Assembly (NCBI GenBank): GCA_900544295.1
Contig: UQUO01000005.1
Location: forward strand, 91,407-155,406
Length of the DNA stretch: 64,000 nt
DNA from: an uncultured Eubacteriales bacterium
GTDB lineage: Bacteria; Bacillota; Clostridia; Oscillospirales; Oscillospiraceae
Direction: 5' to 3'
Part shown: piece by piece, positions 44,711 through 63,615 of the stretch
Layout of the letters: each line of letters starts with the position of its first letter
Numbering within the stretch: the first letter of the stretch is position 1
Notes under the pieces: model-generated
The model's input: the letters and a program-made list of their open reading frames with translations, nothing else
Databases searched by the model: none
Told to the model about the DNA's origin: nothing
Made by a program: the position numbers and the translations under genes

Positions 44711-44733
44711 CCTCGGGACACTTTGTCTCGAAG
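44711..44733. repeat. ICE palindrome copy 1
   Basis: Core GGGACA-CTT-TGTCTC with CCTC before and GAAG after. It lies upstream of the recombinase promoter. Confidence 0.9.
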
Positions 44734-44755
44734 CTGGGGCAGGCCGCAGCCGAAG

Positions 44756-45022
44756 TCACAGCCCGCTTTTTTGCCGGATCAAATAGTCCGTCAAAGTGTC
44801 CTGCAAAGACGGCCCGCCCTCCGCAAATTCAATTTTCACACCGACTCCGCCGATGTTGAAGCAGTACAGATTTTTGGCAACTTGCAAAAACCTTGTGACG
44901 CGCTCTTTGCGGGAAAGGGCGTTATCAAAGGTCATACCGCTCACATCGGGCAGAGACTCAGGGGAAACTGCGCCAATGTCAACGCTTTTCATTTGTTCCA
45001 GTTCCTGTGCGGTTAATCTCAC
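44756..45022 (-). CDS. DUF6870-like small ICE protein
   Basis: An 88-residue protein starting at GTG 45022, 7 nt after AAGGAGG. The sequence runs RLTAQELEQMKSVDIGAVSPE, then LPDVSGMTFDNALSRKERV and NLYCFNIGGVGVKIEF. This layout matches small ICE-encoded proteins of the DUF6870 type. Function is unknown. Longer in-frame extensions lack a ribosome binding site. Confidence 0.65.
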   Translation of the reverse strand: MRLTAQELEQMKSVDIGAVSPESLPDVSGMTFDNALSRKERVTRFLQVAKNLYCFNIGGVGVKIEFAEGGPSLQDTLTDYLIRQKSGL

Positions 45023-45126
45023 GGTAAAACCTCCTTTGTTCAGATTGATAAACGCCTCCCGGTTGTCCTGTGGGGAAACGCGAAAAGGCGGCACCGCATA
45101 AGTGCCGCCCTTTGGCCTGTCCTCAC

Positions 45127-45149
45127 ATCGGGACACAATGTCTCGAAGT
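45127..45149. repeat. ICE palindrome copy 2
   Basis: Core GGGACA-CAA-TGTCTC-GAAG, just downstream of the stop codon of the 66-residue gene. Confidence 0.9.
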
Positions 45150-45349
45150 TAATAGGGGCCGTTTTCGTAATGGTGCTGGGCCTCTTCCAGCGTTTTGAAA
45201 TCAAATACATAATGGAGCTCACCGACAACGCGCCTGATGTCCTCGGGGGAAAAACCACAGTTTTCCATCGCATAGATCACATATCCCCGGCAGGCGTTGT
45301 TGCTCCACGGCTCGGCCAGCATCGCGGCCAATGCGGGATCGTATTTCAT
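45149..45349 (-). CDS. Small conserved-type ICE protein
   Basis: A 66-residue protein (start MKYDPALAAMLAEPWSNNA; then GYVIYAMENCGFSPEDIRRVV and FDFKTLEEAQHHY). It starts with ATG 45349 behind AAAGGGGG. The composition is that of a real soluble protein. I recognise no domain; position among small regulatory ICE genes is the only hint. Confidence 0.55.
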   Translation of the reverse strand: MKYDPALAAMLAEPWSNNACRGYVIYAMENCGFSPEDIRRVVGELHYVFDFKTLEEAQHHYENGPY

Positions 45350-45683
45350 TTTTCAATTCCCCCTTTGATAAAATTTAGGGAACGCCGCGCCCATTTCCTT
45401 GACCTGTCCAAAGACAACTATACTCGGCGTGGCGCTCCCTCGCAGACGAGAGGGCGGCCCGGAGGGACAGGCGGCCAACCTGTCCACTGCCGGATCGTGG
45501 CCGTAGGGTGGCCGGGCCCACTTGCGGCGCTGGTGTTGTTCGCTCATTTTCCTTTGGGAAAAGTCACCGCGCACCCGCCGCCTGGCTCCCCGGATTGCAC
45601 TCGGGGCCGCCCTTGTTCATCTGCGGAGAAAAGAAAACCTCCTCTCATAAACCGAGACATTTTTGGATGATATTCGGACTGGT
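45350..45683. other. 334-nt stretch without a convincing gene
   Basis: Open frames here have no ribosome binding site or family. The sequence is GC-rich with short hairpins (CTCGcagaCGAG near 45438) and no good promoter. It could encode a leader RNA for the genes downstream on the minus strand. Confidence 0.4.
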
Positions 45684-46106
45684 TCAGCGTGATTTTTTCA
45701 AATATTTTTTCATGTTCTCCAAACCGCGCTCCACAGCCCGCCGCACTGCGCTTTCGTCAACACCTTCCGCTTCAGCTACTTCAGAATAGGTCTTGCCAAG
45801 AATGACGCAGGCATCCACACGGCGGCCCTGGACTTCGGGCAGAGAGTTAAGCGCGTTCCACAGACGGATAAAGAGTTCCATCCGTTCCAAGAGCTCCTGG
45901 GGCGTGGGCTCATGCAGGCAGGCCGAGTATTCAATCCCGTCCTCACAGTCAAGAGAATACTGCGCCTTGTGCCGGGAGAGCCGCCGCTGGTAGGCCATTT
46001 CATAACGGGCATCCGCAAGAAAGACCTCCGCTACTTCGTCAGAAACCTCAATAAACTGATCCTGGGTGTACCAATAATAAAAATCTTTCAGATTGACTAT
46101 AGCCAT
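45684..46106 (-). CDS. Sigma-70-family-like ICE factor
   Basis: A 140-residue protein. The C-terminal part is a region-4-like helix-turn-helix: NSLPEVQGRRVDACVILGKTYSEVAEAEGVDESAVRRAVERGLENMKKYL. The N-terminal part (SDEVAEVFLADARYEMAYQRRLSRHKAQYSLD) is shared by many small sigma-like factors of Clostridial conjugative elements. It may activate transfer genes. ATG 46106 has GGAGG upstream. It has no anti-sigma neighbour. Confidence 0.8.
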   Translation of the reverse strand: MAIVNLKDFYYWYTQDQFIEVSDEVAEVFLADARYEMAYQRRLSRHKAQYSLDCEDGIEYSACLHEPTPQELLERMELFIRLWNALNSLPEVQGRRVDACVILGKTYSEVAEAEGVDESAVRRAVERGLENMKKYLKKSR

Positions 46107-46605
46107 AATGAACCTCCGTTTCGGTGTTGGGTGGATGAGTGACCGAAACGGGGCTCGGCGGGGAGCGACACCCTGGGGAGCTGCTCTGTACCTCGGGACA
46201 CTTTGTCTCGAAGTGCAGATAACAAAAAACGCCTGCGCGACACAAAGCCACGCAAGCGCACGAAGTTATATATTCATTTATGTACTGCCAAACTTCACAT
46301 CCACCGCCGGACTGATCCTGCTGGACGGGTGGGCTTTTTTTGACAGGTTAGGGGGATGGAAAAGGAAAAAGGACACGGCGATACCTCCCGGACACCGCCG
46401 TATCCTTAAAAAAGGGCGACTTTAATACACCCCCCGCAATCTCATTTTTTGAAAAGAAAACGGCGGCTTGAAATTTGTTATTTCAAAACCGCCGTAAGGC
46501 TACTGTATTTTGTTTTGGCGCATGAATACCCAGCCGCCGAAACAACGGTTTTTTTATTATCCCGTTGGGCGGCTATTCTGTCCATTTATTAGCCATGAGT
46601 AAAAA
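46107..46605. other. 499-nt region of hairpins between the sigma-like gene and cargo
   Basis: There is no gene. It holds a stem CCGTTTCGGT/ACCGAAACGG (46116-46151), a palindrome copy at 46191, a large hairpin around 46364-46410 (AAGGACACGGCG paired with CGCCGTATCCTT) with T-tract on the minus strand, a hairpin near 46461-46497 (ACGGCGG arms) and another near 46530-46574. The last three could be terminators isolating the cargo genes from the ICE operon. Confidence 0.5.
46191..46213. repeat. ICE palindrome copy 3
   Basis: Core GGGACA-CTT-TGTCTC-GAAG in the leader of the sigma-like gene; identical in the core to copy 1. Confidence 0.9.
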
Positions 46606-47349
46606 TTACCTTTCTATTTTTACTTCCTTGAATTTGGTTTGCACTTTGCTGGACTGAATGTTATTATCAATCCAGCTATATAAAATATCTAATTGCGGTT
46701 GGGTATGGAACCAGTGTTCTCCCGGCTCCCATATTGTTAATTCGCTATGATAAGTTTTCGCAAATGCCTCTACGGTATCACGATCTGTAAGATGGTCTTT
46801 TCCTGCATATAAAATTTTTGTTGGGACTTTCCATTGAGTGACCGGATTATTTGCTGCATACTCCCAATATTTCCACGAAAGCGTTTGTCCGAAAGATGTA
46901 GGAATAGTTTGCTCGTGTCTAAGTCTTTCTTGCGAAACATTGGCCCATGACATCATCTTTTGAATAAGCGACTTCATATCAAGAACTGGGGAAACAAATA
47001 AACACTTTTCCAGATTTTCATTTTTGAAACTTAGCATACTGAACCATGCCCCAATACTATTCGCAAATAGTGCAATATCTGCCCAGCGGTTTTTGGCATA
47101 TTGCATCACAGTTAGAAGCTCTGGTACAATAGTCCACGGATTAAATAAATCACATTCCTCTTTTCTTTCACCATGCTCGGGTAGATCAATACTTAATACT
47201 TGCCATCCATAACGATTTGCAATAGACGCAAATGCTTCTGCTTCTTCTTTATATCCTCCTTGACCGTGTATATAAAGATAGACTTTAGAGGATGTATCCC
47301 CCCATATGATTGCAGGAATGTTTTTGATATTCAAATGTTCATTAGCCAT
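46606..47349 (-). CDS. Alpha/beta hydrolase (AT-rich cargo)
   Basis: A 247-residue alpha/beta hydrolase. YLYIHGQGGYKEEAEAF is the oxyanion-hole region, LFANSIGAWFS the nucleophile elbow (Ser in place of GxSxG with Asn first), AGKDHLTDRD the acid and EHWFHT the catalytic His. Its DNA is much richer in A+T than the surrounding ICE, so it was acquired from another source. The substrate is unknown: an esterase, a lactonase or a drug-modifying enzyme are all possible. It is divergent from a TetR regulator whose operator overlaps its promoter. Confidence 0.8.
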   Translation of the reverse strand: MANEHLNIKNIPAIIWGDTSSKVYLYIHGQGGYKEEAEAFASIANRYGWQVLSIDLPEHGERKEECDLFNPWTIVPELLTVMQYAKNRWADIALFANSIGAWFSMLSFKNENLEKCLFVSPVLDMKSLIQKMMSWANVSQERLRHEQTIPTSFGQTLSWKYWEYAANNPVTQWKVPTKILYAGKDHLTDRDTVEAFAKTYHSELTIWEPGEHWFHTQPQLDILYSWIDNNIQSSKVQTKFKEVKIER

Positions 47350-47389
47350 TGATGTAACCTCTCATCCGAAACGCTATTAGAATTAGTTC

Positions 47390-47437
47390 AAATACTAATC
47401 TAATTAGTATTTTACAGAATGCCTCTCTCTTTGTCAA
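47390..47437 (-). promoter_or_regulatory. Hydrolase promoter with TetR-type operator
   Basis: On the minus strand TTGACA (47432-47437) and TAAAAT (47409-47414), 17-nt spacer. A perfect palindrome with 10-bp arms AAATACTAAT around CTA (47390-47412) covers the -10 and the start. It is well placed for repression by the divergent TetR protein. Confidence 0.85.
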
Positions 47438-47468
47438 GAGCTACACGGCAGGAACCCTAACTTTATTA

Positions 47469-47497
47469 TTGACTACGCTAACGTCATTAGCTAAAAT
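47469..47497 (+). promoter_or_regulatory. tetR-type gene promoter with inner repeat
   Basis: TTGACT (47469-47474) and TAAAAT (47492-47497), 17-nt spacer. GCTAA-N5-TTAGC (47477-47491) lies in the spacer and shares CTAA/TTAG with the hydrolase operator, suggesting autoregulation. Confidence 0.75.
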
Positions 47498-47531
47498 GGT
47501 TATAGGAGAATATAAAATTGAGAGGTGCACT

Positions 47532-48110
47532 ATGCGTGTTTCAAAAGCGTTGGTAATAGAAACGGCTTCACAAATAGCAGACGAACAAGGCTTAAACAGT
47601 CTATCTCTAAAAGCAGTTGCAGAAAAATTGAATGTACGGACACCATCCCTTTATAATCATATTGAAAGCCTTGATGATTTACTTAGAGAAGTAGCTCATA
47701 AAGGGATGCGCTCTATGAATGAGCAAATGGCGCAGGCAGCTATTGGAAAGTCCGGCGATACGGCCTTGAAAGGTGTTAGCGTTGAATATTTGAATTTTAT
47801 TATTGAACACCCTGGAGTATATGAAACTATTCAGTGGGCTACATGGCATGGTACAGAAGAAACAGCTCAAATATTTGGAAACTATATTAAGATTTTATCA
47901 ACGATAATTTCGTCATATAATTTTCCATCTGAAAGCACAAATGAAATATTGAACCTTTTTACCGGATTTCTGCATGGCTTTACCACTTTACAAGTGCGTT
48001 ATGCCTTTTCTGATCCGCAGAAAGTCCGAGATGAGCTCTGTAATGCTGTGGATACGATAATGTTAGGTGTTTACCAAAAGTATGACAGTCACATCGAAAA
48101 CGAGCAATAA
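47532..48110 (+). CDS. TetR/AcrR-family regulator (AT-rich cargo)
   Basis: A 192-residue repressor. The N-terminal HTH is VIETASQIADEQGLNSLSLKAVAEKLNVRTPSLYNHI; the C-terminal ligand domain (GVSVEYLNFIIEHPGVYETI, GFLHGFTTLQV) is of the WHG/TetR_C type. ATG 47532 follows GAGGTG. Divergent from the hydrolase gene and AT-rich like it, so the two form one cargo module. It probably represses the hydrolase until its ligand appears. Confidence 0.88.
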   Translation: MRVSKALVIETASQIADEQGLNSLSLKAVAEKLNVRTPSLYNHIESLDDLLREVAHKGMRSMNEQMAQAAIGKSGDTALKGVSVEYLNFIIEHPGVYETIQWATWHGTEETAQIFGNYIKILSTIISSYNFPSESTNEILNLFTGFLHGFTTLQVRYAFSDPQKVRDELCNAVDTIMLGVYQKYDSHIENEQ

Positions 48111-48161
48111 GTCTAACATGAAAATAAATAGTCAGTAGAATGAAATAAGCAATCGTTCAAA

Positions 48162-48201
48162 TAATATCACCTGAAATATAAAATTACATTAGGTGATATT
48201 A
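48162..48201 (+). promoter_or_regulatory. Inverted repeat over the XRE gene ribosome binding site
   Basis: TAATATCACCT (48162-48172) and AGGTGATATTA (48191-48201) are perfect 11-bp arms. The right arm contains the Shine-Dalgarno site and the A of the start codon. It can act as a DNA operator or, in RNA, fold to hide the start. Confidence 0.6.
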
Positions 48202-48560
48202 TGAAGATTGAGAGAGATGAACGACGATTTGATTTTCACGATATAGGACTTGCCATCAAACGGGCAAGGGAGGCCAGCGGGATGACGCAGGAGCAACTGG
48301 CCTACATTGTTGACCGGGCTCCGCGCACCATCATGTATAACGAGAATGACGGCCAGCACCCCAGCCTCAATACCTTTTATCAGATGGTGACAATGTTCGA
48401 TATATCGGTAGATCAATATTTCTATCCGTCCAAGAACAAAGGGAGCGAGTGCAGAAAGCGGATTGACGCCATGCTCAACGCCCTGGACGAAAAAGAACTA
48501 AAAATTGTAGAAGCCACGATCCAAGCGATGAAAGCGGCTAAAGAAACGGAGGATGCGTAA
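48201..48560 (+). CDS. XRE-family HTH regulator
   Basis: A 119-residue protein. HTH: GLAIKRAREASGMTQEQLAYIVDRAPRTIMYNENDG, followed by SLNTFYQMVTMFDISVDQYF. The C-terminal 40 residues are helical and charged. It is one of few plus-strand ICE genes and is probably a regulator of ICE excision and transfer. The start codon is embedded in an inverted repeat. It has its own terminator. Confidence 0.85.
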   Translation: MKIERDERRFDFHDIGLAIKRAREASGMTQEQLAYIVDRAPRTIMYNENDGQHPSLNTFYQMVTMFDISVDQYFYPSKNKGSECRKRIDAMLNALDEKELKIVEATIQAMKAAKETEDA

Positions 48561-48585
48561 GAAAAAGCGTGTGCCTCCGTTTTTT
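48545..48585 (+). terminator. Terminator of the XRE gene
   Basis: AACGGAGG (48545-48552) pairs with CCTCCGTT (48574-48581), followed by TTTT. The stop codon at 48558 lies in the loop. Confidence 0.7.
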
Positions 48586-48704
48586 GCGCCACTTTCGGGG
48601 TTTGCACAAAACGGCAAGCAATTCGGGTGTGGCCACACTCCGAAATTTTCACAGGCCGCAGGCCCGTGAAAATGCTTGTTGGGGAGCTCCCCAAACCCGC
48701 TGGA
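48586..48704. other. Non-coding stretch between the XRE and relaxase genes
   Basis: There is no gene with a ribosome binding site. It includes the stems TTTTCACAGGCC/GGCCCGTGAAAA (around 48646-48672) and GGGGAGCTCCCC (48681-48692). I recall similar sequence recurring in gut Firmicute genomes, which suggests a dispersed repeat. Copy 4 of the palindrome follows at 48705. Confidence 0.35.
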
Positions 48705-48727
48705 CTTCGGGACAAATTGTCCCAAAG
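48705..48727. repeat. ICE palindrome copy 4
   Basis: Core GGGACA-AAT-TGTCCC-AAAG. Pairing extends outward through GGACTT/AAAGTCC, giving arms of 14 nt with one mismatch. Confidence 0.9.
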
Positions 48728-48761
48728 TCCCGGCGCGAGCGCCTGTTGGATGCGGCCCGGG

Positions 48762-50168: not shown

Positions 50169-50224
50169 AGCCGCGCCTCCTTTCTGAAAAAAGACGGCGG
50201 CTGTGCTCCAGCCGCCGCAAAGGA

Positions 50225-50247
50225 CTTCGGGACAAATTGTCCCAAAG
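50225..50247. repeat. ICE palindrome copy 5
   Basis: Core GGGACA-AAT-TGTCCC-AAAG between the relaxase start and the CD1845-type gene stop. Confidence 0.9.
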
Positions 50248-50249
50248 CA

Positions 50250-50543: not shown

Positions 50544-50590
50544 GGCTTGATACCTCCTTATTTTTGTTGATGGTTTACCTCTATATGACT

Positions 50591-50619
50591 ATTATACCTC
50601 TGTCCCGGAGGGACAACAA
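50591..50619 (-). promoter_or_regulatory. Second promoter with everted GGGACA operator
   Basis: On the minus strand TTGTTG (50614-50619) and TATAAT (50591-50596), spacer 17. TGTCCCGGAGGGACA (50601-50615) lies in the spacer. It drives the CD1845-type gene and perhaps the relaxase. Confidence 0.75.
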
Positions 50620-50640
50620 GGATGCCTCCGGCTTTCAGCA

Positions 50641-50663
50641 CCTCGGGACAAAGTGTCCCGAAG
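50641..50663. repeat. ICE palindrome copy 6
   Basis: Core GGGACA-AAG-TGTCCC with fully paired CTTCG flanks on one side and CTCG on the other; upstream of the second promoter, as copy 1 is upstream of the first. Confidence 0.9.
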
Positions 50664-50704
50664 TAGTGAAAGCCGGGGAACGGCAAAACCGCTCCCCGGC
50701 AGGA

Positions 50705-51213: not shown

Positions 51214-51225
51214 AACACAGACCTC

Positions 51226-51834: not shown

Positions 51835-51860
51835 AGTAGCACCTCCTTAAAAAGCGGGCA

Positions 51861-51883
51861 CTTCGGGACAAATTGTCCCAAAG
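51861..51883. repeat. ICE palindrome copy 7
   Basis: Core GGGACA-AAT-TGTCCC-AAAG, 27 nt upstream of the CTG-start gene. Confidence 0.9.
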
Positions 51884-52371: not shown

Positions 52372-52548
52372 TCACCTCCCGCCAGCCGGGGCTTTCAAAA
52401 GTTCCCGGTAGCAGGACACACAGCCGATGCCCCGCCAGTAGGGACACCCGGAGCACCGGGAGCCCCTGGGCGGCTTCGGCGTGGCCGGAGCCTGGGGGCG
52501 GGGCTTCTGCTTCATCATTGTTTCAAAGGGGCTGTTGGTAAATCTCAT
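52372..52548 (-). CDS. 58-residue Cys-containing protein overlapping the virB4 stop
   Basis: ATG 52548 overlaps the stop of the VirB4 fusion gene (ATGA). The sequence begins MRFTNSPFETMMKQKPRP, then a Pro-rich stretch and CSGCPYWRGIGCVSCYREL with four closely spaced cysteines, a likely zinc site. It stops just before the cysteine-rich VLP gene. Coupled overlaps on both sides support a real gene. Confidence 0.65.
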   Translation of the reverse strand: MRFTNSPFETMMKQKPRPQAPATPKPPRGSRCSGCPYWRGIGCVSCYRELLKAPAGGR

Positions 52549-55268
52549 TTGCCAGCCTCCTCTCCGTCATCGTCCTCCTCGTCCCAGGGCGGGCCGTCAT
52601 CCTCCTCGTCCCCGTAGGGTTCCCCGCCGTCATAGCCATCCAGCTCCCCGCCGTAGTCCTCCTCGGGTTCAGCGGCTTTCTCATGTTTCGGGCGGTAAAT
52701 CTTAAAGTACCAGCCAGCCCCGCCGCCAATCACCGCCACGGCCAGCACCAGCAGAAGCATCCCCATATTGCCGCCTGTTTCCGGCTCGGCCTCCTCCGGG
52801 GCGGGTTCCCCGGTTTCCTCCGTTTCCACGGGCTCCGGCTCCACGCCCGCGCACTCGGTCATATTGACAGCGCAGACCGGGCAATCCGTATTGACAGCCC
52901 CTGCCGCGCATTTTTCAGAGCAGGAGCAGGCGGCCTGTTCCACCCCGGCAGCCTCCGCCGCAGCCAGCAGATCGGCCTCGTCCGTCATGCTCAAAAAGTA
53001 GGTTTCATACTGCTCGCCTTCCTCATCCACAGGCTTGTCATAGTCAATGACAATGTAGGAAAGCTGGTGCTCGGAAATGCCGAGCTGTTTTGCCAAAATC
53101 GTCCGGTCACTTTGGGCCTGGGACAGCAGGATCATAAAATCCGTGTTGTCGAGAATGTTCTCAATCTCCCGGCTGGCCAAAAGGTCTTTCACATTCTGCG
53201 TAAGTGCGCTGGGGACACAGCCCTTTTTGCGGAGCATCTTCCAGACCGCCACAAAGTAGCTGGCGGTCAGAGGATCGCGGAGCAGGACATGGAACTCGTC
53301 AAAGTAGCACCAGGTCGCCACGCCCTCCCGGAAGTTGGTGTCCACCGCCTGGGAGACAAACTCGTTTGTGATGTGCATGGCAATCTTGCGGAGGTTTTCT
53401 CCCATGTTCTTGAGCACGATGCACACCACCCGGCTGTCCGTCTTTACATTGGTGGGATGGTTAAAGAGATTGAGGGAGCCTGTACAGTAGAGCTCCAGGG
53501 CGGTTGCCACCCGGCGGGCCTCCGGCTCCGGCTGTTTGAGAAGCTCCTCGTACAAGTCCTGCAACAGCGGCGTTTTTTCCGTGGCAAGCCCCAGGGCCTG
53601 CTCCCGGTAGACCAGCCGCACACAGCGGTCAACCACCGTCTTTTCGATAGGCTGTAAGCCGTCCTTGCCGCCTACCACCAGCTCGCACAGGGAAAGCAAA
53701 AAATCCGCCTTCATGGAGAGCGGGCTTTCCCCGGCGGTCATGTTGAGCTCCACATCCATCGGGTTTAAGTGGTGGGGGCTGTCCGGGGCAATCTCGATCA
53801 CCTGGCCGCCCAGCCTGCGAACCAGCGGGGCATATTCCCCCATTGGATCGACAATCAAAATCCGATCCTGGGGGATGGCAAGGAACACATTTAGAAGCTC
53901 CCTTTTTGCGGCGAAAGATTTTCCCGAGCCGGTAGAGCCCAAGTAAAGCCCATTGGCCGACTTCAGCTTTTTGCGGTCAGCCATGATGACATTGTGGGAA
54001 AGGGCGTTCATGCCGTAGTAGAGGGCCTGTCCAGCCATCCGCAGCTCCCTTGTCATAAAGGGAATGAAAATCGCCGTGGAGCTGGTTGTCATGCCGCGTT
54101 TAATCTCCACCTCGTTATAGCCAAGAGCCAGCGAGGACACAAAGCCCTGTTCCTGTTGCCAGTCAAGACGCTTTAAGGAACAGTTGTATTTCTGCGCGAT
54201 GCCGCCAACGGTAAACACATCGTTTTCCAGCCGCTGGCGGGTGGGGGCAAAGTTTACCACCGTGAAAGTGAGCAGGAACATCCTCTCGTTGCGGGACTGG
54301 AGGTCGGCCAGAAGCTCCGCCGCGTCCTTGCTGAATGTGATAAGGTCGGGCGGCAGGATGTCGGGATCGTACCCGGCCCGCACCGCCTTGCGCTGTTCCT
54401 CTACCTTCATTTTTCCGATGTCGGAGATTTTGCCCTTGATGGTCTTAATGGCCTTGAGCTGATCCACCGTCTGAATATGGAGCGTGACCGTCATTTCCGC
54501 ATCCATCTCCAAAATCTCCGCAAGGAGCTTGTCGGAGAGCTCGGACGCTAAAATCTGCAAGTAGGATACCGCGCCCCAATACTGGCCGATCCGGAATGAA
54601 CGGGACTGCCGAAAGTCGAAGCTGTCCGGGGCAATAAAGTCCTTTGTGCCGAGCCCGGTCTGCGGAATGTCCTTCCATGAAAAGCGGAACGGCTCCCGGT
54701 TTCCCGGGTGCATCTGGCTATAAAGCAAGGCCAGCCTTGCCCGCCCGTCCATCGGCTCACAGGGAACACCCAGCCGCTTGAAGTTTCCCATCACATCGGC
54801 CTCCACCCGTTCCAGGCGGGGGCGGGCCTCCGCGATCCCTTCGGCGGGTATGCCGAAAGTGATGTATTTGGAGCGTTCAATGCCGTTGTTGCTTTTGGCG
54901 ATCTGATTTTTCAGCATCCCGGTAAATTCCTCCCGGACGCTGTTAAAATCGTCATCCGCCTGGGGAATATTTACCTTGTAGCGGCTCCTGGAATGGGAAC
55001 GGCGGTTGATAAAGGAAAGCTGGAACGGCAGAGTGCTGTCAAAGTAGTTGAGGAACGAGCTCCAGCCGCCGAAAATCGCCGTCTGATCCTCGGTGCTTGC
55101 CACGGAATAATTGATGTCCTCATATTCCACGGTCTTTGTATAGAGCCCGCCGGGGAGCTTGCACACCCCGTCCGGGTGCATCGCCAGATAGGGGATCGTC
55201 TGCTGGACGGATAGGGCCGCCCGGCTGTTACCCCTTCCGGGACTGTTTTTGCTTTTTGCCTTTCGCAA
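52545..55268 (-). CDS. VirB4-type ATPase fused in frame to a DUF4366-like membrane tail
   Basis: A 907-residue protein. TTG 55268 is preferred over ATG 55274, which touches the AGGAGG site. Residues 1-735 are a VirB4/TraE-type secretion ATPase: Walker A GSTGSGKSFAAKREL near 448, ILIVDPMGEYAPLV, FDEFHVLLRDP, ALTQNVKDLLAS, and AKQLGISEHQLSYI. From about residue 736 the sequence changes to VIDYDKPVDEEGEQYETYFL, a Cys-rich CSCSEKC...CPVCAV segment, a transmembrane helix and an acidic tail, which is the C-terminal part of DUF4366/CD1107-type proteins. The end of VirB4, the cell-wall hydrolase gene and DUF4315 that normally intervene are absent. Confidence 0.8.
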   Translation of the reverse strand: MRKAKSKNSPGRGNSRAALSVQQTIPYLAMHPDGVCKLPGGLYTKTVEYEDINYSVASTEDQTAIFGGWSSFLNYFDSTLPFQLSFINRRSHSRSRYKVNIPQADDDFNSVREEFTGMLKNQIAKSNNGIERSKYITFGIPAEGIAEARPRLERVEADVMGNFKRLGVPCEPMDGRARLALLYSQMHPGNREPFRFSWKDIPQTGLGTKDFIAPDSFDFRQSRSFRIGQYWGAVSYLQILASELSDKLLAEILEMDAEMTVTLHIQTVDQLKAIKTIKGKISDIGKMKVEEQRKAVRAGYDPDILPPDLITFSKDAAELLADLQSRNERMFLLTFTVVNFAPTRQRLENDVFTVGGIAQKYNCSLKRLDWQQEQGFVSSLALGYNEVEIKRGMTTSSTAIFIPFMTRELRMAGQALYYGMNALSHNVIMADRKKLKSANGLYLGSTGSGKSFAAKRELLNVFLAIPQDRILIVDPMGEYAPLVRRLGGQVIEIAPDSPHHLNPMDVELNMTAGESPLSMKADFLLSLCELVVGGKDGLQPIEKTVVDRCVRLVYREQALGLATEKTPLLQDLYEELLKQPEPEARRVATALELYCTGSLNLFNHPTNVKTDSRVVCIVLKNMGENLRKIAMHITNEFVSQAVDTNFREGVATWCYFDEFHVLLRDPLTASYFVAVWKMLRKKGCVPSALTQNVKDLLASREIENILDNTDFMILLSQAQSDRTILAKQLGISEHQLSYIVIDYDKPVDEEGEQYETYFLSMTDEADLLAAAEAAGVEQAACSCSEKCAAGAVNTDCPVCAVNMTECAGVEPEPVETEETGEPAPEEAEPETGGNMGMLLLVLAVAVIGGGAGWYFKIYRPKHEKAAEPEEDYGGELDGYDGGEPYGDEEDDGPPWDEEDDDGEEAGK

Positions 55269-55617
55269 TCGCATCCTCCTTTCTCACAGCGCCCCGCCCG
55301 GTAAACGGGGCGTAAATGTTTTCTGTCTGATAGTGCCGAGCCCCGGGCCGCAGGAATTTGGCCCGGATGATGTTATGAACCACTTTTTCAAAGGGGAGCC
55401 CGTCTTTTTCATACATCGCCAGCAGGAACGCCGGGAGCATGACCGCCAGCATAAGGAACATGGCCCCGGTATTCCCCAAGGGCTCCCGCGCCAGCAGATA
55501 GGACGGGATGCCGATGGCCGCCGCCCCGCCAAAGCAGATGAGCTGGCGCTTTGTCAAATTGAACGCCATCTTCGTTTTGATTTTGGATAAGTCGTTCGGT
55601 ACATTCACATAGGGCAT
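55228..55617 (-). CDS. PrgI-family type IV secretion protein
   Basis: A 129-residue protein with two transmembrane helices (LICFGGAAAIGIPSYLL; GAMFLMLAVMLPAFLLAMY) and the family features YVNVPNDLSKIKTK and NIIRAKFLRPG. PrgI is the VirB3-like inner-membrane component next to VirB4, and its gene overlaps the VirB4 start by about 40 nt. ATG 55617 behind GGAGG. Confidence 0.9.
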   Translation of the reverse strand: MPYVNVPNDLSKIKTKMAFNLTKRQLICFGGAAAIGIPSYLLAREPLGNTGAMFLMLAVMLPAFLLAMYEKDGLPFEKVVHNIIRAKFLRPGARHYQTENIYAPFTGRGAVRKEDAIAKGKKQKQSRKG

Positions 55618-56198
55618 GGATCAACCTCCTTTCTCACCCCGGGGACTTCGGGACAATTTGTCCCAAAGTCCGGGACGGTGCTTTCCACCTCGTTTCCCCA
55701 TACATCCCAGCCGGGCGGCGTCTGTCTTGCGAACAGCTCCACCCGGGGCAGATCGCCCATGAGGGCAACAATCTTTTCCCGGGCCTCGTCCGGCTTTTTG
55801 CTGTGGGCTTCAATGGGGGAAATGATAAACTGGTGGATATTGGCCGCCTGCCGCTTCGGATGCCCTTTTGTTGCCAGCAGGCAGACCTCCGCATTTCCCC
55901 TCGTCCAAAAGCCCAGGCCGTAAAACCAGCTATCAGCCTTCCGGTTTTTCTTCAGCCAGACGAAAGCCACGGACTTATACTGAAAGCCCCACGCCTTAAT
56001 CAGCCGCAGGGCCTCGGGGAGCTGGGGGAAAGTCGCCCACAAAAAAAGCGCGCTGTCCGGGGCCGCCAGATCTGCCACCGGGAGCGCACATAACTCGTCA
56101 ATCCCCATTGTGGGATAATGGTGCTCCGCCGCCCCTTGCAGGCCCTTTTGGGCGTACCGCCACGGGGGATCGGCGTAAATGATAGAATATCGTCCGAT
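55605..56198 (-). CDS. MT-A70-family methyltransferase (apparent ATC start)
   Basis: A 197-residue adenine methyltransferase-like protein. The first ATG in frame (56108) would remove the catalytic DPPW motif. Starting at ATC 56198, 7 nt after AAAGGAG, gives MGRYSIIYADPPWRYAQKG. Later features are ALFLWATFPQLPEAL, SVAFVWLKKNRK and WGNEVEST. MT-A70 enzymes methylate N6 of adenine. The last 20 residues come from palindrome copy 8 (DFGTNCPEV). It overlaps the prgI gene. Confidence 0.8.
   Translation of the reverse strand: MGRYSIIYADPPWRYAQKGLQGAAEHHYPTMGIDELCALPVADLAAPDSALFLWATFPQLPEALRLIKAWGFQYKSVAFVWLKKNRKADSWFYGLGFWTRGNAEVCLLATKGHPKRQAANIHQFIISPIEAHSKKPDEAREKIVALMGDLPRVELFARQTPPGWDVWGNEVESTVPDFGTNCPEVPGVRKEVDPCPM
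55646..55668. repeat. ICE palindrome copy 8 (inside coding sequence)
   Basis: Core GGGACA-ATT-TGTCCC-AAAG within the 3' part of the MT-A70 gene, read as FGTNCPEV. Confidence 0.9.
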
Positions 56199-56200: not shown

Positions 56201-56995
56201 TTACACTCCTTTCTCCCCGGCCTCCACCGCCAAGCGTGCCACGCGGATGCGCTCACTGGCGGCGGCGTAAAAGGCCGGAGCCGTTTCAAAGCAGACGAAG
56301 CGGCGGCCAGCATTGAGGGCGGCAACGGCGGTTGTGCCGGAGCCCGCGCAGATGTCGGCCACCAGCTCGCCGGGCCGGGTGTAGGTCTTGATGAAATACT
56401 CGCACAGCTCCACGGGCTTTTGTGTGGGATGGATGCCGCCTGTCACCGTGGGGACAAACAGCACATTTCCCGGATAGCGCCGCCCATCGCTGGACTCGTA
56501 GCTCTGCCGCTCGAATTTTCCATAGTTCGGGCTGGTGCCGCTGCGGGCATGGACGCGGCTGTACGGCTTGCCGTAAGTAAACTGCGGATTGTAAAGCGGG
56601 GCTTTCTGATAGAACACCAAAATATTCTCCGACTTTTTCAGCGGGGCCCGGTTTGCATTGAGAAATCCCGTCCCGCGCTCCTTGTACCAGATCCACTCAT
56701 AGCGAAGCATGGAGAGGTTGGAGGCCCCCAGCACCTTGTCATAGGGACATTGAGCAAAGAACAGCACCGCACCCTCCGGCTTGACCGCCCATTTCACTGC
56801 CTCCCATAATTCCGGGAGCGGCAACGGCACATCCCAAAAGTTGCGGGTAGTGCCGTAGGGCGGATCGGTCAAGAGCATATCCACCGAATGACGGGGAAGG
56901 GAGCGCAGGCCCTCGATGCCGTCCATCAGAAACAGCCCCTCCGTGAGCCCCGGGGACTTCTGGACAATTTGTCCCAAAGCCGCCTTATCGGTCAT
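56201..56995 (-). CDS. DNA methyltransferase, N6/N4 type
   Basis: A 264-residue methyltransferase. ATG 56995 has GGAGG 6 nt upstream. The catalytic LTDPPYG motif comes before the S-adenosylmethionine site DICAGSGTTAVAAL, the order of the beta class. NYGKFERQSYESSDGRRYPG and HPTQKPVELCEYFI are typical. It has no restriction partner in view, so it may protect ICE DNA in new hosts. Codons 7-15 come from palindrome copy 9 (LGQIVQKSPG). Confidence 0.88.
   Translation of the reverse strand: MTDKAALGQIVQKSPGLTEGLFLMDGIEGLRSLPRHSVDMLLTDPPYGTTRNFWDVPLPLPELWEAVKWAVKPEGAVLFFAQCPYDKVLGASNLSMLRYEWIWYKERGTGFLNANRAPLKKSENILVFYQKAPLYNPQFTYGKPYSRVHARSGTSPNYGKFERQSYESSDGRRYPGNVLFVPTVTGGIHPTQKPVELCEYFIKTYTRPGELVADICAGSGTTAVAALNAGRRFVCFETAPAFYAAASERIRVARLAVEAGEKGV
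56957..56979. repeat. ICE palindrome copy 9 (inside coding sequence)
   Basis: Core TGGACA-ATT-TGTCCC-AAAG (first half-site with one change). It is read near the N-terminus of the methyltransferase. Confidence 0.85.
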
Positions 56996-57236: not shown

Positions 57237-57251
57237 ATAACACCCCTTTCC

Positions 57252-58118: not shown

Positions 58119-58129
58119 AAGCCGCTACC

Positions 58130-58342: not shown

Positions 58343-58410
58343 AGAGCCTCCATTTCTCCGGGTGTTCCCCGGCCATGAAAAAAGCCGCCATCACTGGCGG
58401 CAGGTTACAG

Positions 58411-58433
58411 CTTCGGGACACTTTGTCCCAAAG
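58411..58433. repeat. ICE palindrome copy 10
   Basis: Core GGGACA-CTT-TGTCCC-AAAG between the VirD4 stop and the Maff2 start. Confidence 0.9.
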
Positions 58434-58438
58434 CCCAT

Positions 58439-60292
58439 TTATGCAAAGGCGTCTGGATCGTCGATGTCATCATAGTTGAGGATGTCCTCGTCCTCTTCCG
58501 TGAGCGCATCGTCCGGCACAGCCACCTCATACATCTCACACGCCTCGTTAAGCCCTGGCCGCCTGCGGCGGTTTATGAGCTTGTCGAGGTCAAAAGCGTT
58601 TTTCTGTTTGTCGGCTTCAGCCGTGTATTTATAATTCGGGTGCTTTTTCAGATCATACTTCGGGGAGTAGAACGGGGGCAGGCCCCGAAGCTGTAAAATG
58701 CACTTGTCCCCAGGCATGGTAGCCAGCTCGCTGGGTGTCATCAGCTCCCGGCCCAGCCGCTGGTTATTTTGACTGTAGCTTTCCGACTGCCCACGGGAGC
58801 GGCTGTCGGTCTGCATGGAGATGGTAGCTTTCCCCAGCCAGTTTTCGGATATTTCCTTGATGGTGCTGGCCTCGCGGCCTCCCAGGAATACCACGCTGTC
58901 CATATTTCCGAGAATTGTCTCCGCGTGTTTATCGTAAATGGCCTTGCACTGCGCCAACTGCTGATAAAAGAGCGTCAGCGATACCTCGCGGGAGCGGATC
59001 ACGGCGCAGATTTTTTCGAGCTGGGGCACCTGTCCCGTGTTGGCCGCCTCGTCCCACAGCACCCGTACATGGTGGGGCAGGCGGCCTCCGAAAACATTGT
59101 CGGCCCGTTCACACAGAAGATTGAACATCTGCGAAAAGGCAAGCGCCACAAGAAAGTTATAGGTCTGCGTGGTGTCCGAAATGATAAAGAACACCGCCGT
59201 TTTCCGATCCCCGATGCGGTCAAGCTCCATCTCGTCATAGGCCATAATCTCCCGAAGCTGGGGGATGTCAAAGGGCGCGAGGCGGGCCCCGCAGGAAATC
59301 AGGATCGACTTTGCGGTTTTGCCGCTACTTAATTTATATTTGCGGTACTGTTTGACCGCAAAGCAATCCGGCTTGCGCTTTTCCAGCCCTTTGAACATAT
59401 AGTCCACGGCGTTTAAGTAGTTTTCATCGTCCTCCTTTACTTCCATGCCGGAAATCATATCCACCAGCGTATTCATGTTCCGATCCTCGGCGGGGCCCTC
59501 GAAAATGATATAGGCAATCAAAGCGCAGTACAAAAGCGTTTCGGCCTTCGTCCAGAACGGATCGCCTTCCTTGCCCTCGCCTTTGGTATTGGAAATCAGC
59601 GCATCCACAAATTTAAGGATGTCGGCTTCATTCTTGATATAGGCCAGCGGATTGTAGTGCATGGATTTTGAAAAATCAATGGAATTGAACACCTTGATCC
59701 GATACCCGCGCCGCTGTAAGAAAGATCCCACCTGGGAGAGCACCCCGCCTTTCGGATCGACGCACACATAGCTGCATCCGCCGTTTTTATCCGCGCTGGC
59801 CTGCAAAATCTGCGGCGTGAGCCAGAAGCGGGTTTTGCCCGAGCCGGACGAGCCGATCACACAGGCGTTAAGGTTGCGGGCGTTGGCCGGGTTTTTCGGG
59901 CGGGTGTTCATAGTAAGAAACTCTGTCCCGGTCAAAATGATGTTGTTTTCAAACTTCGGATCGATAAAGGGCTTGATGTCTTTTTCGGTGCCCCAGCGGG
60001 CCGATCCGTATTCTTCATCCCGTCTAAATTTCTTTGCGTTCTTGCTTTTGAAGTAGATCAGCAGGCGGAAGCCTGCCGCACCCACAATGCCGATGAGCCA
60101 GTCAAAGGGAGCAAGCCCCGGCGCAAAGTCGGCAAAGGCCGGGCCGATAGTCTGCCCCAGCCCCATGAGCTTATGGGCGAAATCCGCGCCAGCAGCCAGA
60201 CGGTAAGCCGTCCCCAGCTTTAAGCAGGCCCACAGCACAAACAGATAGGGGATGTTGGGGAGTACATATTTTTTGATGTTATCTGTCCTCAC
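58439..60292 (-). CDS. VirD4-type conjugative coupling ATPase
   Basis: A 617-residue coupling protein. An N-terminal helix pair (about 12-85) precedes Walker A CVIGSSGSGKTRF near residue 150 and Walker B-type VRVLWDEAANTGQVP. EYGSARWGTEKDI and HYNPLAYIKNEADILKFVDA are family markers, with acidic low-complexity at the C-terminus. It delivers the relaxase-DNA complex to the channel. GTG 60292, 7 nt from AAAGGAGG, overlaps the PcfB gene by 14 nt. Confidence 0.93.
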   Translation of the reverse strand: MRTDNIKKYVLPNIPYLFVLWACLKLGTAYRLAAGADFAHKLMGLGQTIGPAFADFAPGLAPFDWLIGIVGAAGFRLLIYFKSKNAKKFRRDEEYGSARWGTEKDIKPFIDPKFENNIILTGTEFLTMNTRPKNPANARNLNACVIGSSGSGKTRFWLTPQILQASADKNGGCSYVCVDPKGGVLSQVGSFLQRRGYRIKVFNSIDFSKSMHYNPLAYIKNEADILKFVDALISNTKGEGKEGDPFWTKAETLLYCALIAYIIFEGPAEDRNMNTLVDMISGMEVKEDDENYLNAVDYMFKGLEKRKPDCFAVKQYRKYKLSSGKTAKSILISCGARLAPFDIPQLREIMAYDEMELDRIGDRKTAVFFIISDTTQTYNFLVALAFSQMFNLLCERADNVFGGRLPHHVRVLWDEAANTGQVPQLEKICAVIRSREVSLTLFYQQLAQCKAIYDKHAETILGNMDSVVFLGGREASTIKEISENWLGKATISMQTDSRSRGQSESYSQNNQRLGRELMTPSELATMPGDKCILQLRGLPPFYSPKYDLKKHPNYKYTAEADKQKNAFDLDKLINRRRRPGLNEACEMYEVAVPDDALTEEDEDILNYDDIDDPDAFA

Positions 60293-60758
60293 GAACCGCC
60301 TCCTTTACCCGTTCCCTCTTGCGGGGCTTTTCCTTTGCAAGCTGATCCGCCGCCTGTTTAAGCTGTTCCCGGATGGGGATGCGGCGGGATTTGGATTTAT
60401 TCAGCACCTTCCGCGAGTATTCAGAAAAGCAGGCGGTGATCGCATCCGCCTGCCCCGACTTGAAAAACAACAGGTATTTGTCTGGCCCGGTTTTATAAAA
60501 GGCATAGTCTACATTCCACTTCCGGGCCACCCGGTCAAAAGCCTTCGTATCCCCGGAAAGCTCAATACTGTTTGTAGCCGCGCCGTGTCCCATGAGCTTT
60601 TTCACGCTCTGCCTGCCGTGGGGCGTTTGGTGTTCCCGGTAAGCCTTGCGGATCTGCCGGCCCACAGCCCCCAGCACATAGGCAAGGCCCCGCGCCGTCA
60701 GCTTGCTGGCCCGGACGGAAATTGCTATGGTGCGCCGGGAAACATCTTCATCAATCAG
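60279..60758 (-). CDS. PcfB-family protein (CTG start)
   Basis: A 159-residue protein. CTG 60758 lies 8 nt after AAAGGAGG and gives MIDEDVSRRTIAISVRASKLTARG, the usual opening of PcfB/DUF3801 proteins; a GTG at 60677 would delete this region. AFYKTGPDKYLLFFKSGQADAITACFSEY is the conserved core. PcfB binds the coupling protein or relaxase-DNA complex. The next gene, VirD4, overlaps it. Confidence 0.82.
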   Translation of the reverse strand: MIDEDVSRRTIAISVRASKLTARGLAYVLGAVGRQIRKAYREHQTPHGRQSVKKLMGHGAATNSIELSGDTKAFDRVARKWNVDYAFYKTGPDKYLLFFKSGQADAITACFSEYSRKVLNKSKSRRIPIREQLKQAADQLAKEKPRKRERVKEAVREDR

Positions 60759-60784
60759 TTATACCGCCTCCTTTCCGGCGGCCA

Positions 60785-60807
60785 CCTCGGGACAAAGTGT
60801 CTCGAAG
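60785..60807. repeat. ICE palindrome copy 11
   Basis: Core GGGACA-AAG-TGTCTC-GAAG between the ArdA stop and the PcfB ribosome binding site. Confidence 0.9.
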
Positions 60808-60813
60808 TGCCGT

Positions 60814-61518
60814 CTATCGTTCCTCACGCTCCTTATTAGAAAGTTTCCGATAGCCTTCCAAAGAAGAACCGTCAATAATCTCCTTGTAGGCCGCCATCTG
60901 TTCCCGGATAGAAAGTTTCGGATAGGAGAAAACTCTGTGCTTGGCGGGGATGTCCTTTGTATCGTGGTAAAACTCCTTGAAGTCCCCGCTGGTCTGGACA
61001 ATATAGCCGCCGGGGGCAAAATGGCCGCCCTCGTTGATGGAAACATCCCGCCCGGATGCTTCATAATCAAAGTAGTCTTTCAGCTCTTCCGGGATCGGCA
61101 AGTCCTCCGCAAAATAGCGGCCCAAATCCTCCTCATTTTCAATGTCGGGATAAAACTCGTAGCAGTCCAGATTTTGCGTGAGGTTGATGAGGTCAGCCAC
61201 GCTGGAAGTGTGCCCGCCGCTGTCGATCACAGCCTCGAATTTCTCCAAATCGCTCTGATCCAGTTCGGAAAGCAGGCAGGCCAGATGATTGAGCTCGTCA
61301 AGGTTTTCGTATTCCGTCAGATAGTCATAGAGCCCCAGCACATCGCCGTCAAAGCTGGTAATGAAAAACTCCTCATACCGCACGCCATCCACGCCGATGC
61401 GCTTTAGGAGCGCCTGCACCTCCTCCGTGGTAGTGGGGAATTTCAGCGTTTCTCCTGCCAGCTCGCCCTCGTTATATTTCCCCAGGTTCGTGATGTAGGC
61501 TTCGAAAAGGGCCGCCAT
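60814..61518 (-). CDS. ardA: ArdA-type anti-restriction protein
   Basis: A 234-residue acidic DNA-mimic protein. It shows FEAYITNLGKYNEGELAGETL at the N-terminus, EEFFITSFDGDVLGLYDYL, LNHLACLLSELDQSDLEKFEAV and the C-terminal VFSYPKLSIREQMAAY. ArdA inhibits type I restriction enzymes after transfer. The high Asp/Glu content agrees. ATG 61518 overlaps the stop of the gene upstream by one base. Confidence 0.92.
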   Translation of the reverse strand: MAALFEAYITNLGKYNEGELAGETLKFPTTTEEVQALLKRIGVDGVRYEEFFITSFDGDVLGLYDYLTEYENLDELNHLACLLSELDQSDLEKFEAVIDSGGHTSSVADLINLTQNLDCYEFYPDIENEEDLGRYFAEDLPIPEELKDYFDYEASGRDVSINEGGHFAPGGYIVQTSGDFKEFYHDTKDIPAKHRVFSYPKLSIREQMAAYKEIIDGSSLEGYRKLSNKEREER

Positions 61519-61859
61519 CAGCGGCGGCCCTGTCCCTTGACGGTAAGGATGCCCTCAAGGGTGGTAGCAGTAATCCCCAGCCGCTGGGCAACGGCGATGT
61601 CGTTTTTCATGGCCTCGGTCATGGTATGGCCGCAGACCACCAGTACATGGGAGCGGCGGAGCAGGTCGCGGCTCATGTCAATGCCGCTTTTGTGCTCCTC
61701 CGGCACTGCGTCATTGAGGAACAAGGGCAGATACAGGGTAGGACAGATGGGCGAAAACCCCGCCTCGTACACCGCCCGACAGTAGCGGGCCGCCTGTTCT
61801 GCGTTTTCACTGTCACCGCCAAGCCATCCGGCGGTAATATAAGCAAGTGGCCGTTTCAT
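61518..61859 (-). CDS. DUF4406-type nucleoside-hydrolase-like protein
   Basis: A 113-residue protein. ATG 61859 has GGAGG 8 nt upstream (a TTG at 61865 is too close). AYITAGWLGGDSENAEQAARYCRAVYEAGFSPICPTL and HVLVVCGHTMTEAMKNDIAVAQRLGI fit the nucleoside 2-deoxyribosyltransferase-like fold of DUF4406 and related families. The enzymatic role is uncertain. It shares a base with the ardA start, so the two are coupled. Confidence 0.7.
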   Translation of the reverse strand: MKRPLAYITAGWLGGDSENAEQAARYCRAVYEAGFSPICPTLYLPLFLNDAVPEEHKSGIDMSRDLLRRSHVLVVCGHTMTEAMKNDIAVAQRLGITATTLEGILTVKGQGRR

Positions 61860-62154
61860 TGTCAAAACCTCCGTTCTTTGAAGAAAGATACTTCAGCCCA
61901 ATCCCCCCGCCCTTTCCCAGTCATGGGAAAGGGGGCGGCTCTGGAGGATATATACCCCCGCCGCGCCGCTGGAAATAGCACAGCCGGGGCAGACCGTAAA
62001 GGGCAGGCCGCCGCAAGCGGCGGTGCGTTGCACCCTTGACGGCCCACTCCCGGCTGTGCAGGAAGATAGGCGGCGACGGGGGATATATCACCACAGAGCC
62101 CTCTGCAGGAGGGGCGGGGCCCCTCGGGACAATTTGTCTCGAAGTGTGGTCGGG
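61860..62154. other. 295-nt hairpin-rich gap
   Basis: There is no convincing gene. A strong stem CCGCCCTTTCCCA with its near-complement (61907-61938), CCGCCGCAAGCGGCGG (62009-62024) and palindrome copy 12 fill it. It may carry a processing or leader signal for DUF4406-ardA. Confidence 0.45.
62122..62144. repeat. ICE palindrome copy 12
   Basis: Core GGGACA-ATT-TGTCTC-GAAG, 11 nt past the ParB stop. Confidence 0.9.
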
Positions 62155-63615
62155 TTACTTGTCTTTTTCCATCTTTTTCGGGGCCTTTGCCAGCTCGGGC
62201 GGCTGTTTCTCCTTCCACTCGTCCAGCAAAGTCATGATCTGCTCCTTCATTTTGGCGGGAGTGGCCTCCTTGCCAAAATACTTCTCCAGTTCGGCCATCG
62301 AAATAATCACGCCGCGATCCTCCTTTTTCTTTTCGCTTAATATGCCGTCAATTATATCGCCGTTAAGTTTGCCCTCCTTATCCAGCTCCCGGAGCTGTTT
62401 CGCCTGGGCCAGAGAGGGGGATGCCTGTTCCCCGTCAATGGAAACGGCAATCAGCCTTTGGTTTTTCGGCTTGATATAGGAAAGCTCCACCGCAGGCATG
62501 AAGCCCATCTTTTTATCGTCCACCTTATCCATGAGCTCCGGGACAAGGTGGTTAAGGCGCAGATACCGCATAACCTTTTTATAGTTCATGCCATGCGCCT
62601 CGCCCACAATCTCAACCGAGCGTTTCCCCACATCGCCCTCGGCCACACCTTTCAGCCGGGAGCCCTGGTGCTTGATGTCCTCTACCTCCAGATCCAAAAG
62701 GGCGGCCAGTTCGCTGGGGAGCGTCTGATCCCTCTGCTTGTTGCTGTCCTTCATGGCCTCCACCGCCTCGTGGTCGGTCATATCCCGGACAATAAAGGGC
62801 ATTTCCTCCAGCCCGGCCAGCTCGCTGCCACGGCAGCGGCGATGGCCTGCCACAATCTCATAGCCGTTTCCGTCCTTTTCCGGGCGGGCAAGTCCGGGTA
62901 CCATAACGCCGTTGAGCTTGATGGATGCCACGGTTTCCTGCATTTTGGCATCGTCCCGCACCTTGAACGGATGGGGGCGGAATGTATGGAACGGATGGAG
63001 CTCGGAAAGTTTCAGATAGACCAGCTTTCCCTCCTCAACAGGGCGGGGCGGCGCAGTCGGCTCCGTCACACCCTGCTCCGGGGGAGCGGCCTCCTTTGCG
63101 GGCTTATCCTTTCCGGCATCCGGGGGAACAGGAACGTCGGGAGCTTTCCCGCCACTTCGGGACAATTTGTCTCGTTTGGACGGCTGGGCCTCGCCGGGGG
63201 CCGCCTTGTCAGCCTTAGAGGGGCGGCCCTTGCGGGGCCCGGACTTTTTGGGTTCCTTTTCAGCCTCCGGCCCGGTGCGTTCCGCCTTATCAGACTTAGG
63301 GGGACGGCCCCGGCGCGGCTTTTCGGTTTTCTCGCTTTCAGCGGCAGGACGATCCAGCGCAGGAGCCCCAGCTTCCGGTTCACGGGATGCCTCTGCCTTT
63401 TCCACCTCGGCCCGGGCCGCCTGCCGCTTTTCTGCCATGAGCGCGTCAATCTGCTCCGCAGAGATTACCACATCGACGGGCTCGGCAGGCCCGGCCTGTT
63501 CCGGCGGGTGTTCGGGAACAGCGGCCTCCCCGTGGGCCGGATCAGCCACAGCGGGCGCGGGGGCCTCTTCGATTTTCTGAACCTCGGGGCCCGTGTTCAG
63601 TTTTTCATCTGCCAT
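62155..63615 (-). CDS. ParB/RepB/Spo0J-type protein with AT-hook-like N-terminus
   Basis: A 486-residue protein. Residues 1-190 are low-complexity and contain two AT-hook-like motifs (RRGRPPKSD and RKGRPSKAD). Residues about 200-330 form the ParB nuclease-like/CTP-binding domain: LKLSELHPFHTFRPHPF, IVAGHRRCRGSELAGLEEMP, MKDSNKQRDQTLPSE. Residues about 345-400 are the HTH (IVGEAHGMNYKKVMRYLRLN). Such proteins partition or stabilise the circular ICE. DKLSRS in the linker comes from palindrome copy 13. The ParA gene is expected to the right, outside the window. Confidence 0.88.
   Translation of the reverse strand: MADEKLNTGPEVQKIEEAPAPAVADPAHGEAAVPEHPPEQAGPAEPVDVVISAEQIDALMAEKRQAARAEVEKAEASREPEAGAPALDRPAAESEKTEKPRRGRPPKSDKAERTGPEAEKEPKKSGPRKGRPSKADKAAPGEAQPSKRDKLSRSGGKAPDVPVPPDAGKDKPAKEAAPPEQGVTEPTAPPRPVEEGKLVYLKLSELHPFHTFRPHPFKVRDDAKMQETVASIKLNGVMVPGLARPEKDGNGYEIVAGHRRCRGSELAGLEEMPFIVRDMTDHEAVEAMKDSNKQRDQTLPSELAALLDLEVEDIKHQGSRLKGVAEGDVGKRSVEIVGEAHGMNYKKVMRYLRLNHLVPELMDKVDDKKMGFMPAVELSYIKPKNQRLIAVSIDGEQASPSLAQAKQLRELDKEGKLNGDIIDGILSEKKKEDRGVIISMAELEKYFGKEATPAKMKEQIMTLLDEWKEKQPPELAKAPKKMEKDK
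63155..63177. repeat. ICE palindrome copy 13 (inside coding sequence)
   Basis: Core GGGACA-ATT-TGTCTC, followed by GTTT instead of GAAG. It is read in the ParB linker as DKLSRS. Confidence 0.85.

Follow-up and report, generated by a model that had tools for sequence, protein, structure and literature searches.

Palindromes at fixed positions in clostridial integrative and conjugative elements as a probable parS-like array of the elements' own ParB protein

The DNA analysed here is a stretch of 64,000 nucleotides from an uncultured Eubacteriales bacterium (assembly GCA_900544295.1, contig UQUO01000005.1, positions 91,407 to 155,406), hereafter called the window. Its right part carries an integrative and conjugative element (ICE) in which a 23-bp palindrome is repeated many times, and this palindrome and the ParB-family protein encoded by the same element are the subject of the present work. 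The element was classified as an ICE because its VirB4 and VirD4 proteins match the CD1110 and CD1115 families and because Pfam matches were obtained for the relaxase, ArdA, a NikA/MobC-like protein and CD1107-like parts; we take it to be of the Tn1549 kind. The left end of the ICE encodes a serine recombinase (42960..44639, minus strand), for which Ccr/XisF-type matches remained below the curated cut-offs. The ParB-family protein of 486 amino acids, our proposed binder of the palindromes, is encoded at 62155..63615 on the minus strand. The window stops 385 bp past parB, and the other end of the ICE lies outside.

The assignment of this protein to the ParB family was based on matches to Pfam ParB_N (PF02195, 54.1 bits, cut-off 26.3) and to NCBIfam TIGR00180 (66.4 bits, cut-off 58.45). 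The protein has the N-terminal domain of the ParB CTPase type and a ParB fold with a DNA-binding helix-turn-helix (HTH) domain, and the GHRR motif is present in its sequence.

The palindrome is near-perfect and odd, with the half-site YTCGGGACA on either side of a 3-base centre, and it occurs 13 times between 44,711 and 63,177. All copies listed in a preliminary description of this DNA were recovered, each within one base of its listed position. A scan of the 64 kb for GGGACA-N3-TGTCCC with up to 2 mismatches returned 15 matches, compared with 2.46 expected from shuffled sequence (maximum 7). Thirteen of these were the copies already listed, and the remaining two (15,380 and 39,801) each had 2 mismatches. 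These two weak matches are the only ones to the left of the array. The centre had been described as free, which did not hold up: in 314 sites from 134 loci matching the pattern, the central bases were constrained and mostly AAA, TTT, CTT, AAG, ATT or AAT.

Ten of the 13 copies are intergenic, in a region that is itself 16% intergenic, or 25% if cargo genes are excluded (P ~2e-6 for random placement at 16%), in agreement with the preference for gene junctions that had been noted. Starting from the recombinase, site 1 (44711..44733) lies 3' of a DUF6870 gene and site 2 (45126..45148) immediately 3' of the stop of a gene for 66 amino acids. Site 3 (46191..46213) is found upstream of a sigma-70 region 4 gene, site 4 (48705..48727) 34 nt 3' of the relaxase stop, site 5 (50225..50247) 2 nt 3' of the DUF5699 stop and upstream of the relaxase, and site 6 (50641..50663) 41 nt 3' of the NikA/MobC-like stop. 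Site 7 (51861..51883) separates genes for 122 and 195 amino acids. Sites 10 (58411..58433), 11 (60785..60807) and 12 (62122..62144) follow the VirD4, ArdA and ParB stops at distances of 5, 6 and 10 nt, respectively. The three copies within reading frames were also confirmed: site 8 (55646..55668) occupies the final codons of the MT-A70 frame, site 9 (56957..56979), with a T at base 4 of one arm, lies at the start of a second methyltransferase frame and 5 nt past the preceding stop, and site 13 (63155..63177) covers codons 147-154 of parB, in the linker. Altogether, 9 of the 13 sites lie 0-41 nt 3' of a minus-strand stop codon; those at 46,191, 51,861 (115 nt), 55,646 and 63,155 do not.

Sites were compared across 11 ICE regions from 10 sources (the window, G001, G002, G003 with two regions, G005, G006, G007, G181, G016 and G043). 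They adjoin the same genes throughout, even though the identity of the encoded proteins varies, depending on the gene, from about 40 to 96%. A script found 110 of 119 slot-by-ICE cells filled, or 106 of 115 when a site that may fill two slots (5' side of the recombinase, 3' side of a gene for 88 amino acids) is counted once. Random placement of the same numbers of sites per span filled a mean of 22 cells and a maximum of 33 (200 trials). The preliminary description had proposed to compare orthologous junctions with and without a copy; with 110 of the 119 cells occupied, a pattern of presence and absence by insertion did not emerge.

The array is respelled as a whole. In G181, all of it is spelled TTCTGGACA, and in G016 and G043 it is spelled TTCGGGCCA or TTCGGGTCA (half-site TTCGGGYCA), in each case with unchanged slots. 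Sites in an element's own spelling numbered at least 8 in 10 of the 11 regions and 5 in the deletion-bearing second region of G003 (G003b), whereas other spellings, differing in at least 2 half-site bases, numbered at most 4 per region among the four best listed for each. By computation, the array is thus conserved in its slots and respelled in a coordinated way. Since the whole array changes in step, its reader must change along with it. Among about 10 ICE ParB regions retrieved, some carry fewer sites: 4-5 each in G181_1.18, G001_2.75 and G006_0.45, and 2 in G063_C1. The first three of these regions look disrupted by other elements.

An asymmetry was observed at base 5. In 31 of the 127 sites of the 11 ICE regions, the 5' arm of the transcript strand carried A against C, and the reverse was found in none. 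Asymmetric sites of this sort seem to be found repeatedly at corresponding slots (recombinase, 3' side of parB, within the parB gene), so a site orientation or affinity may have been kept.

The coding content of the window ICE shows two further peculiarities. A single frame of the window (52545-55274) encodes a fusion of VirB4, up to about residue 741, with the CD1107-like domain; the two are separate in G001, G002, G003, G006, G007 and G181, where they lie about 2 kb and two sites apart. A pair of hydrolase-like and TetR-like genes, assigned by reading of the sequences, is located at 46606-48110 between the sigma-like and XRE genes and looks like cargo.

The preliminary description had regarded the palindrome as specific to the element. 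A scan of genome contigs found at least 120 stretches with the motif, mostly from Clostridia according to record titles, and viral contigs added 14. In 8 whole genomes, picked for holding the motif and not including the window's own genome, TYGGGACANNNTGTCYCRA occurred at 75 distinct places, compared with none for a reversed control pattern. Of these places, 71 fall in retrieved stretches with genes of ICEs or mobilizable elements, while four (G004:3293187, two on G007:C3, and G005:548470) lie outside the retrieved stretches. Element specificity was thus supported in the 8 genomes searched. Among the 134 pattern loci, 85 carry ICE genes; 25 with neither ICE nor mobV/rep genes were excluded from the study.

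The remaining 24 loci have a MobV-like relaxase or RepA-like gene (both assigned by reading of the sequences) and lack both ICE genes and a ParB relative within the stretch examined, which was mostly 8 kb or less. In five distinct elements of this satellite type (L031, L044, L097, L095 and the G004 element), a TTCTGGACA site stands next to a TTCGGGACA site of different ParB specificity; such pairs are located, for example, at L152:17068-17114 (G004) and at L154:10641-10687 (the G008 element, identical to L095). The paired sites resemble docking positions, one for each of two helper ICEs.

Most of the examined relatives of the ICE ParB have a palindrome of the same plan, with varying core, within their own gene just before the HTH. 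The best palindrome was perfect (9/9 pairs) in 57 of 168 parB genes, but only in 5 of 840 codon-shuffled genes. A stricter filter retained an in-frame palindrome in 131 of the 168 genes and none in the other 37, and 119 of the 131 palindromes begin at a single alignment column before the HTH. Synonymous recoding of the in-gene stretch left a mean of 4.23 of 9 pairs compared with 8.31 observed, a value reached in 0.5% of draws. Because recoding loses the palindrome, it is the DNA, and not the peptide alone, that is conserved. The window ParB and its close relatives differ: their in-gene site sits in the linker, further upstream than the usual column.

The sites within parB genes made it possible to compare proteins with their own sites. 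The set consisted of 109 ParBs less than 90% identical (the 131 minus 12 off-column and 10 near-identical ones), and every well-filled protein column, numbered as in a relative of 310 amino acids, was compared with every site base. With the site-encoding loop excluded, the top columns for bases 4-7 were 166 (bases 4-5), 177 and 178 (6-7) and 181 (5-6). According to a structural model, columns 177, 178 and 181 would lie on the recognition helix and column 166 on the preceding helix. They correspond to V334, Y345, K346 and M349 of the window ParB, within its HTH part (codons 331-360, 62536..62625, minus strand). Columns 166 and 177 align with Q162 and R173 of Caulobacter ParB, residues which are reported to contact parS. 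Base 9 tracked columns scattered across the protein, as expected of shared descent.

Residue pairs at these columns were tied to pairs of bases (6-7 or 4-5) by near-deterministic rules: YK to GA (16/16), RN to CC (18/19) and AR to GC (8/9), with RQ to TG (14/14) and DQ to GT (12/14) as further examples. Among the 81 ParBs with symmetric cores, the four residues gave the whole 4-base core correctly in all 38 cases that were covered by donors less than 60% identical, whereas the nearest homologue gave 7 and the majority core 3 correct answers for the same cases. With donors below 50% identity, the four-residue rule was right in 29 of 29, the nearest homologue in 0 and the majority in 1. The two-base rules, again with donors below 60%, were right in 67 of 77 covered cases for bases 6-7 and 75 of 78 for bases 4-5; as a control, the best of 200 random pairs of variable columns scored 45% and 43%, respectively (medians 20% and 23%). 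By this computation, the core of the palindrome depends on HTH residues of the cognate ParB, as in a parS-type site, and the dependence is weaker on new genomes. The ICE ParBs conform in that TYKQ is found with GGGACA sites and NVKQ with GGG[C/T]CA sites, and the window type, VYKM, keeps the rule at bases 6-7. Five annotated ParBs less than 60% identical were also checked. The Cohnella herbarum protein agrees with the rules, as do the E. faecalis and S. suis records, the site of which was already within the training set.

Several points weigh against this assignment. The code was trained mostly on short ParBs with a single in-gene site and not on array ICEs. A search of 391 genomes yielded 30 loci, 23 of them new after 7 redundant with the training set had been dropped. 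For the 23 ParBs, bases 6-7 were right in 14, half right in 1, wrong in 4 and unpredicted in 4, and bases 4-5 were right in 9, half right in 1, wrong in 6 and unpredicted in 7, compared with 6 of 23 right by the nearest homologue for either base pair. In our judgement, the best palindromes of L346, L353 and L370, all scored as wrong, are unlike the slot site. In the fourth of the annotated ParBs, from Pusillibacter, the site is of the predicted type but shortened, and for the fifth, from Monoglobus, a palindrome was looked for and none was found. The window type itself breaks the rule at base 4, where V at column 166 predicts T and the window has G, and identical VYKM residues pair with T at base 4 in G181 and G169. 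Immediately ahead of the helix, the window type and that of G181 and G169 diverge (GKRS against GKLS), and an additional residue is therefore likely to take part in the choice of base 4. Alignment of the HTH to known ParBs scores low. Finally, most sites are not adjacent to a recognised promoter.

A shared DNA-binding site had been one of several options in the preliminary description. It is strongly supported by the slots, by the respelling of whole arrays and by the tracking of HTH residues, and the candidate binder is the ParB of the ICE, which sequence comparisons predict very confidently. We estimate a probability of roughly 0.87 that the palindromes are a parS-like array, in element-specific spelling, of the ICE's own orphan ParB; the function of the array is what we infer. 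Each HTH of a ParB dimer would read one half-site, composed of TTC, the 4-base core and CA, and four HTH residues would read the core. From the sites, ParB would load over the entire transfer module, presumably as a sliding clamp dependent on cytidine triphosphate (CTP). The likeliest use would be a joint control of recombinase promoter and transfer operon, probably by silencing, in the manner of KorB. Physical binding, clamp loading with CTP and silencing are likewise steps that we infer.

KorB serves as our model. The distance from its operators to the promoter downstream is either 4-10 bp or 45 to >1,000 bp, and KorB silences at a distance via CTP-dependent sliding (PMC11790492). The window ICE likewise has several putative operators of one ParB across a conjugative element, some of them close upstream of promoters. 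One example is the recombinase promoter (TTGTTG-17-TATAAT, 44671..44699, minus strand): in the window ICE as in G001, G002 and G007, site 1 ends 11 bp before its -35 element. By this analogy, a KorB-like use of ParB and array is a reasonable proposal with slightly less than an even chance of being correct.

Hexamers in reverse order (TGTCCC-N3-GGGACA) were noticed between the -35 and -10 elements of two promoters (44671-44699 and 50591-50619) and considered as a second operator. This palindrome is not retained at the recombinase promoter of G001, G002 and G007, and we therefore regard it as incidental.

Alternatively, ParB might bind the array for maintenance or DNA organisation (partition, compaction, or SMC loading on the excised circle) and not for gene control. 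ParB proteins of known systems load SMC and partition DNA. The short relatives, moreover, form ParA-ParB pairs with an in-gene site, in the style of partition cassettes: ParA adjoins a short ParB at 7 places (two in G001, one each in G181 and G016, three in G043). In G002, a RepA-like gene, identified by reading of the sequence, lies upstream of parB. ParABS systems are described in PMC12704722. A partition cassette of this kind would encode ParA next to ParB, but no intact ParA (PF13614) was listed in the array ICEs of G001, G002, G003, G005, G007, G181, G016 and G043 (G006 was left out, and for the window ICE the search reached the window end only). A ParA start with Walker motif upstream of the array ICE parB in G002 (G002:C1:978334-978546) is broken by a stop, and just outside that ICE a short ParB has a partial ParA as its neighbour. 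In addition, a partition system would have no need of 10-15 sites at fixed gene positions. We consider a maintenance role unlikely, although it is the most serious competitor. We read the array ParB as an orphan recruited for another purpose; such orphans, encoded outside parAB operons, occur widely (PMC12704722).

Activation of late ICE genes by ParB and the array appears less likely still. It has a precedent in ICEclc, where BisD, a protein with a ParB domain, activates ICE promoters together with BisC (PMC7423338), and the position of site 1 just upstream of the recombinase -35 is usual for an activator. This is a single promoter position, however, and it fits repression as well as activation.

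A role of the palindromes as RNA hairpins in the processing or stability of mRNA was not supported, and we consider it highly improbable. The location of 9 of the 13 sites 0-41 nt past stop codons would suit such a role, as would the strong stems predicted for minus-strand copies and the terminator-like hairpins that follow two sites within 10 nt (with T runs, on the minus strand within the transfer operon: 50194-50218 after site 5 and 58384-58401 after site 10). Mismatched pairs on the transcript strand, however, show no wobble preference (G-U 62, A-C 65 in the 127 sites), the spelling of the core tracks ParB HTH residues, and no Rfam match was found in 42,900-64,000. As for mobile palindromes like repetitive extragenic palindromes (REP) or Rickettsia palindromic elements (RPE), the numerous copies and the several reading frames left intact by them are outweighed by the slots shared between divergent ICEs (110 of 119 cells against a random maximum of 33) and by the change of spelling in all slots at once, and the chance that this reading is correct is negligible.

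Six spellings of the 15-bp core did not occur in the open-access literature searched, and the accessible parts of that literature on ParB specificity, ICE ParB/parS, coevolution, Tn1549, BisD, KorB and intragenic parS do not describe the array or the code. The analysis provides more than 100 natural ParB genes, most with their own site inside the gene; since the site is written in its own gene, the recognition code is directly readable and testable. From it come a candidate regulator for a widespread ICE type, a suggestion as to how a number of these elements can live in a single cell free of cross-talk, and a testable connection of ParB-less mobilizable elements to helper ICEs. Tentatively, the mobile elements of gut Clostridia might hold a large natural diversity of ParB-site pairs with a near-modular four-residue code, in which every gene is labelled by the site within it. 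A single branch might have lost ParA and multiplied its site into an array of 10-15 copies by which the transfer genes are silenced in the manner of KorB, and ParB-less satellites might carry one or two specificities in order to sense or exploit helper ICEs.

Among known systems, the KorB/OB pair of plasmid RK2 differs from the array in site spelling; here, the array is found in Gram-positive ICEs, with many sites at the 3' ends of genes. Spo0J/ParB-parS shares the ParB fold with HTH and the site within the parB gene, parS-359 of B. subtilis being located inside parB (PMC4442127); the palindrome described here differs in being odd, in having three central bases and a core that varies, and in that no intact ParA is listed in the array ICEs. 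BisD of ICEclc is also a ParB-domain regulator of an ICE, but it is proteobacterial and acts as an activator together with BisC, and a site array was not seen in the available part of the report (PMC7423338). Noc and its binding sites (NBS) are likewise a ParB relative and a multitude of scattered sites; a few residues of the HTH region set the changed specificity, the switch from ParB to Noc having been dissected at the bench (PMC7383237). The array differs from NBS in that its sites are confined to a mobile element in the genomes searched.

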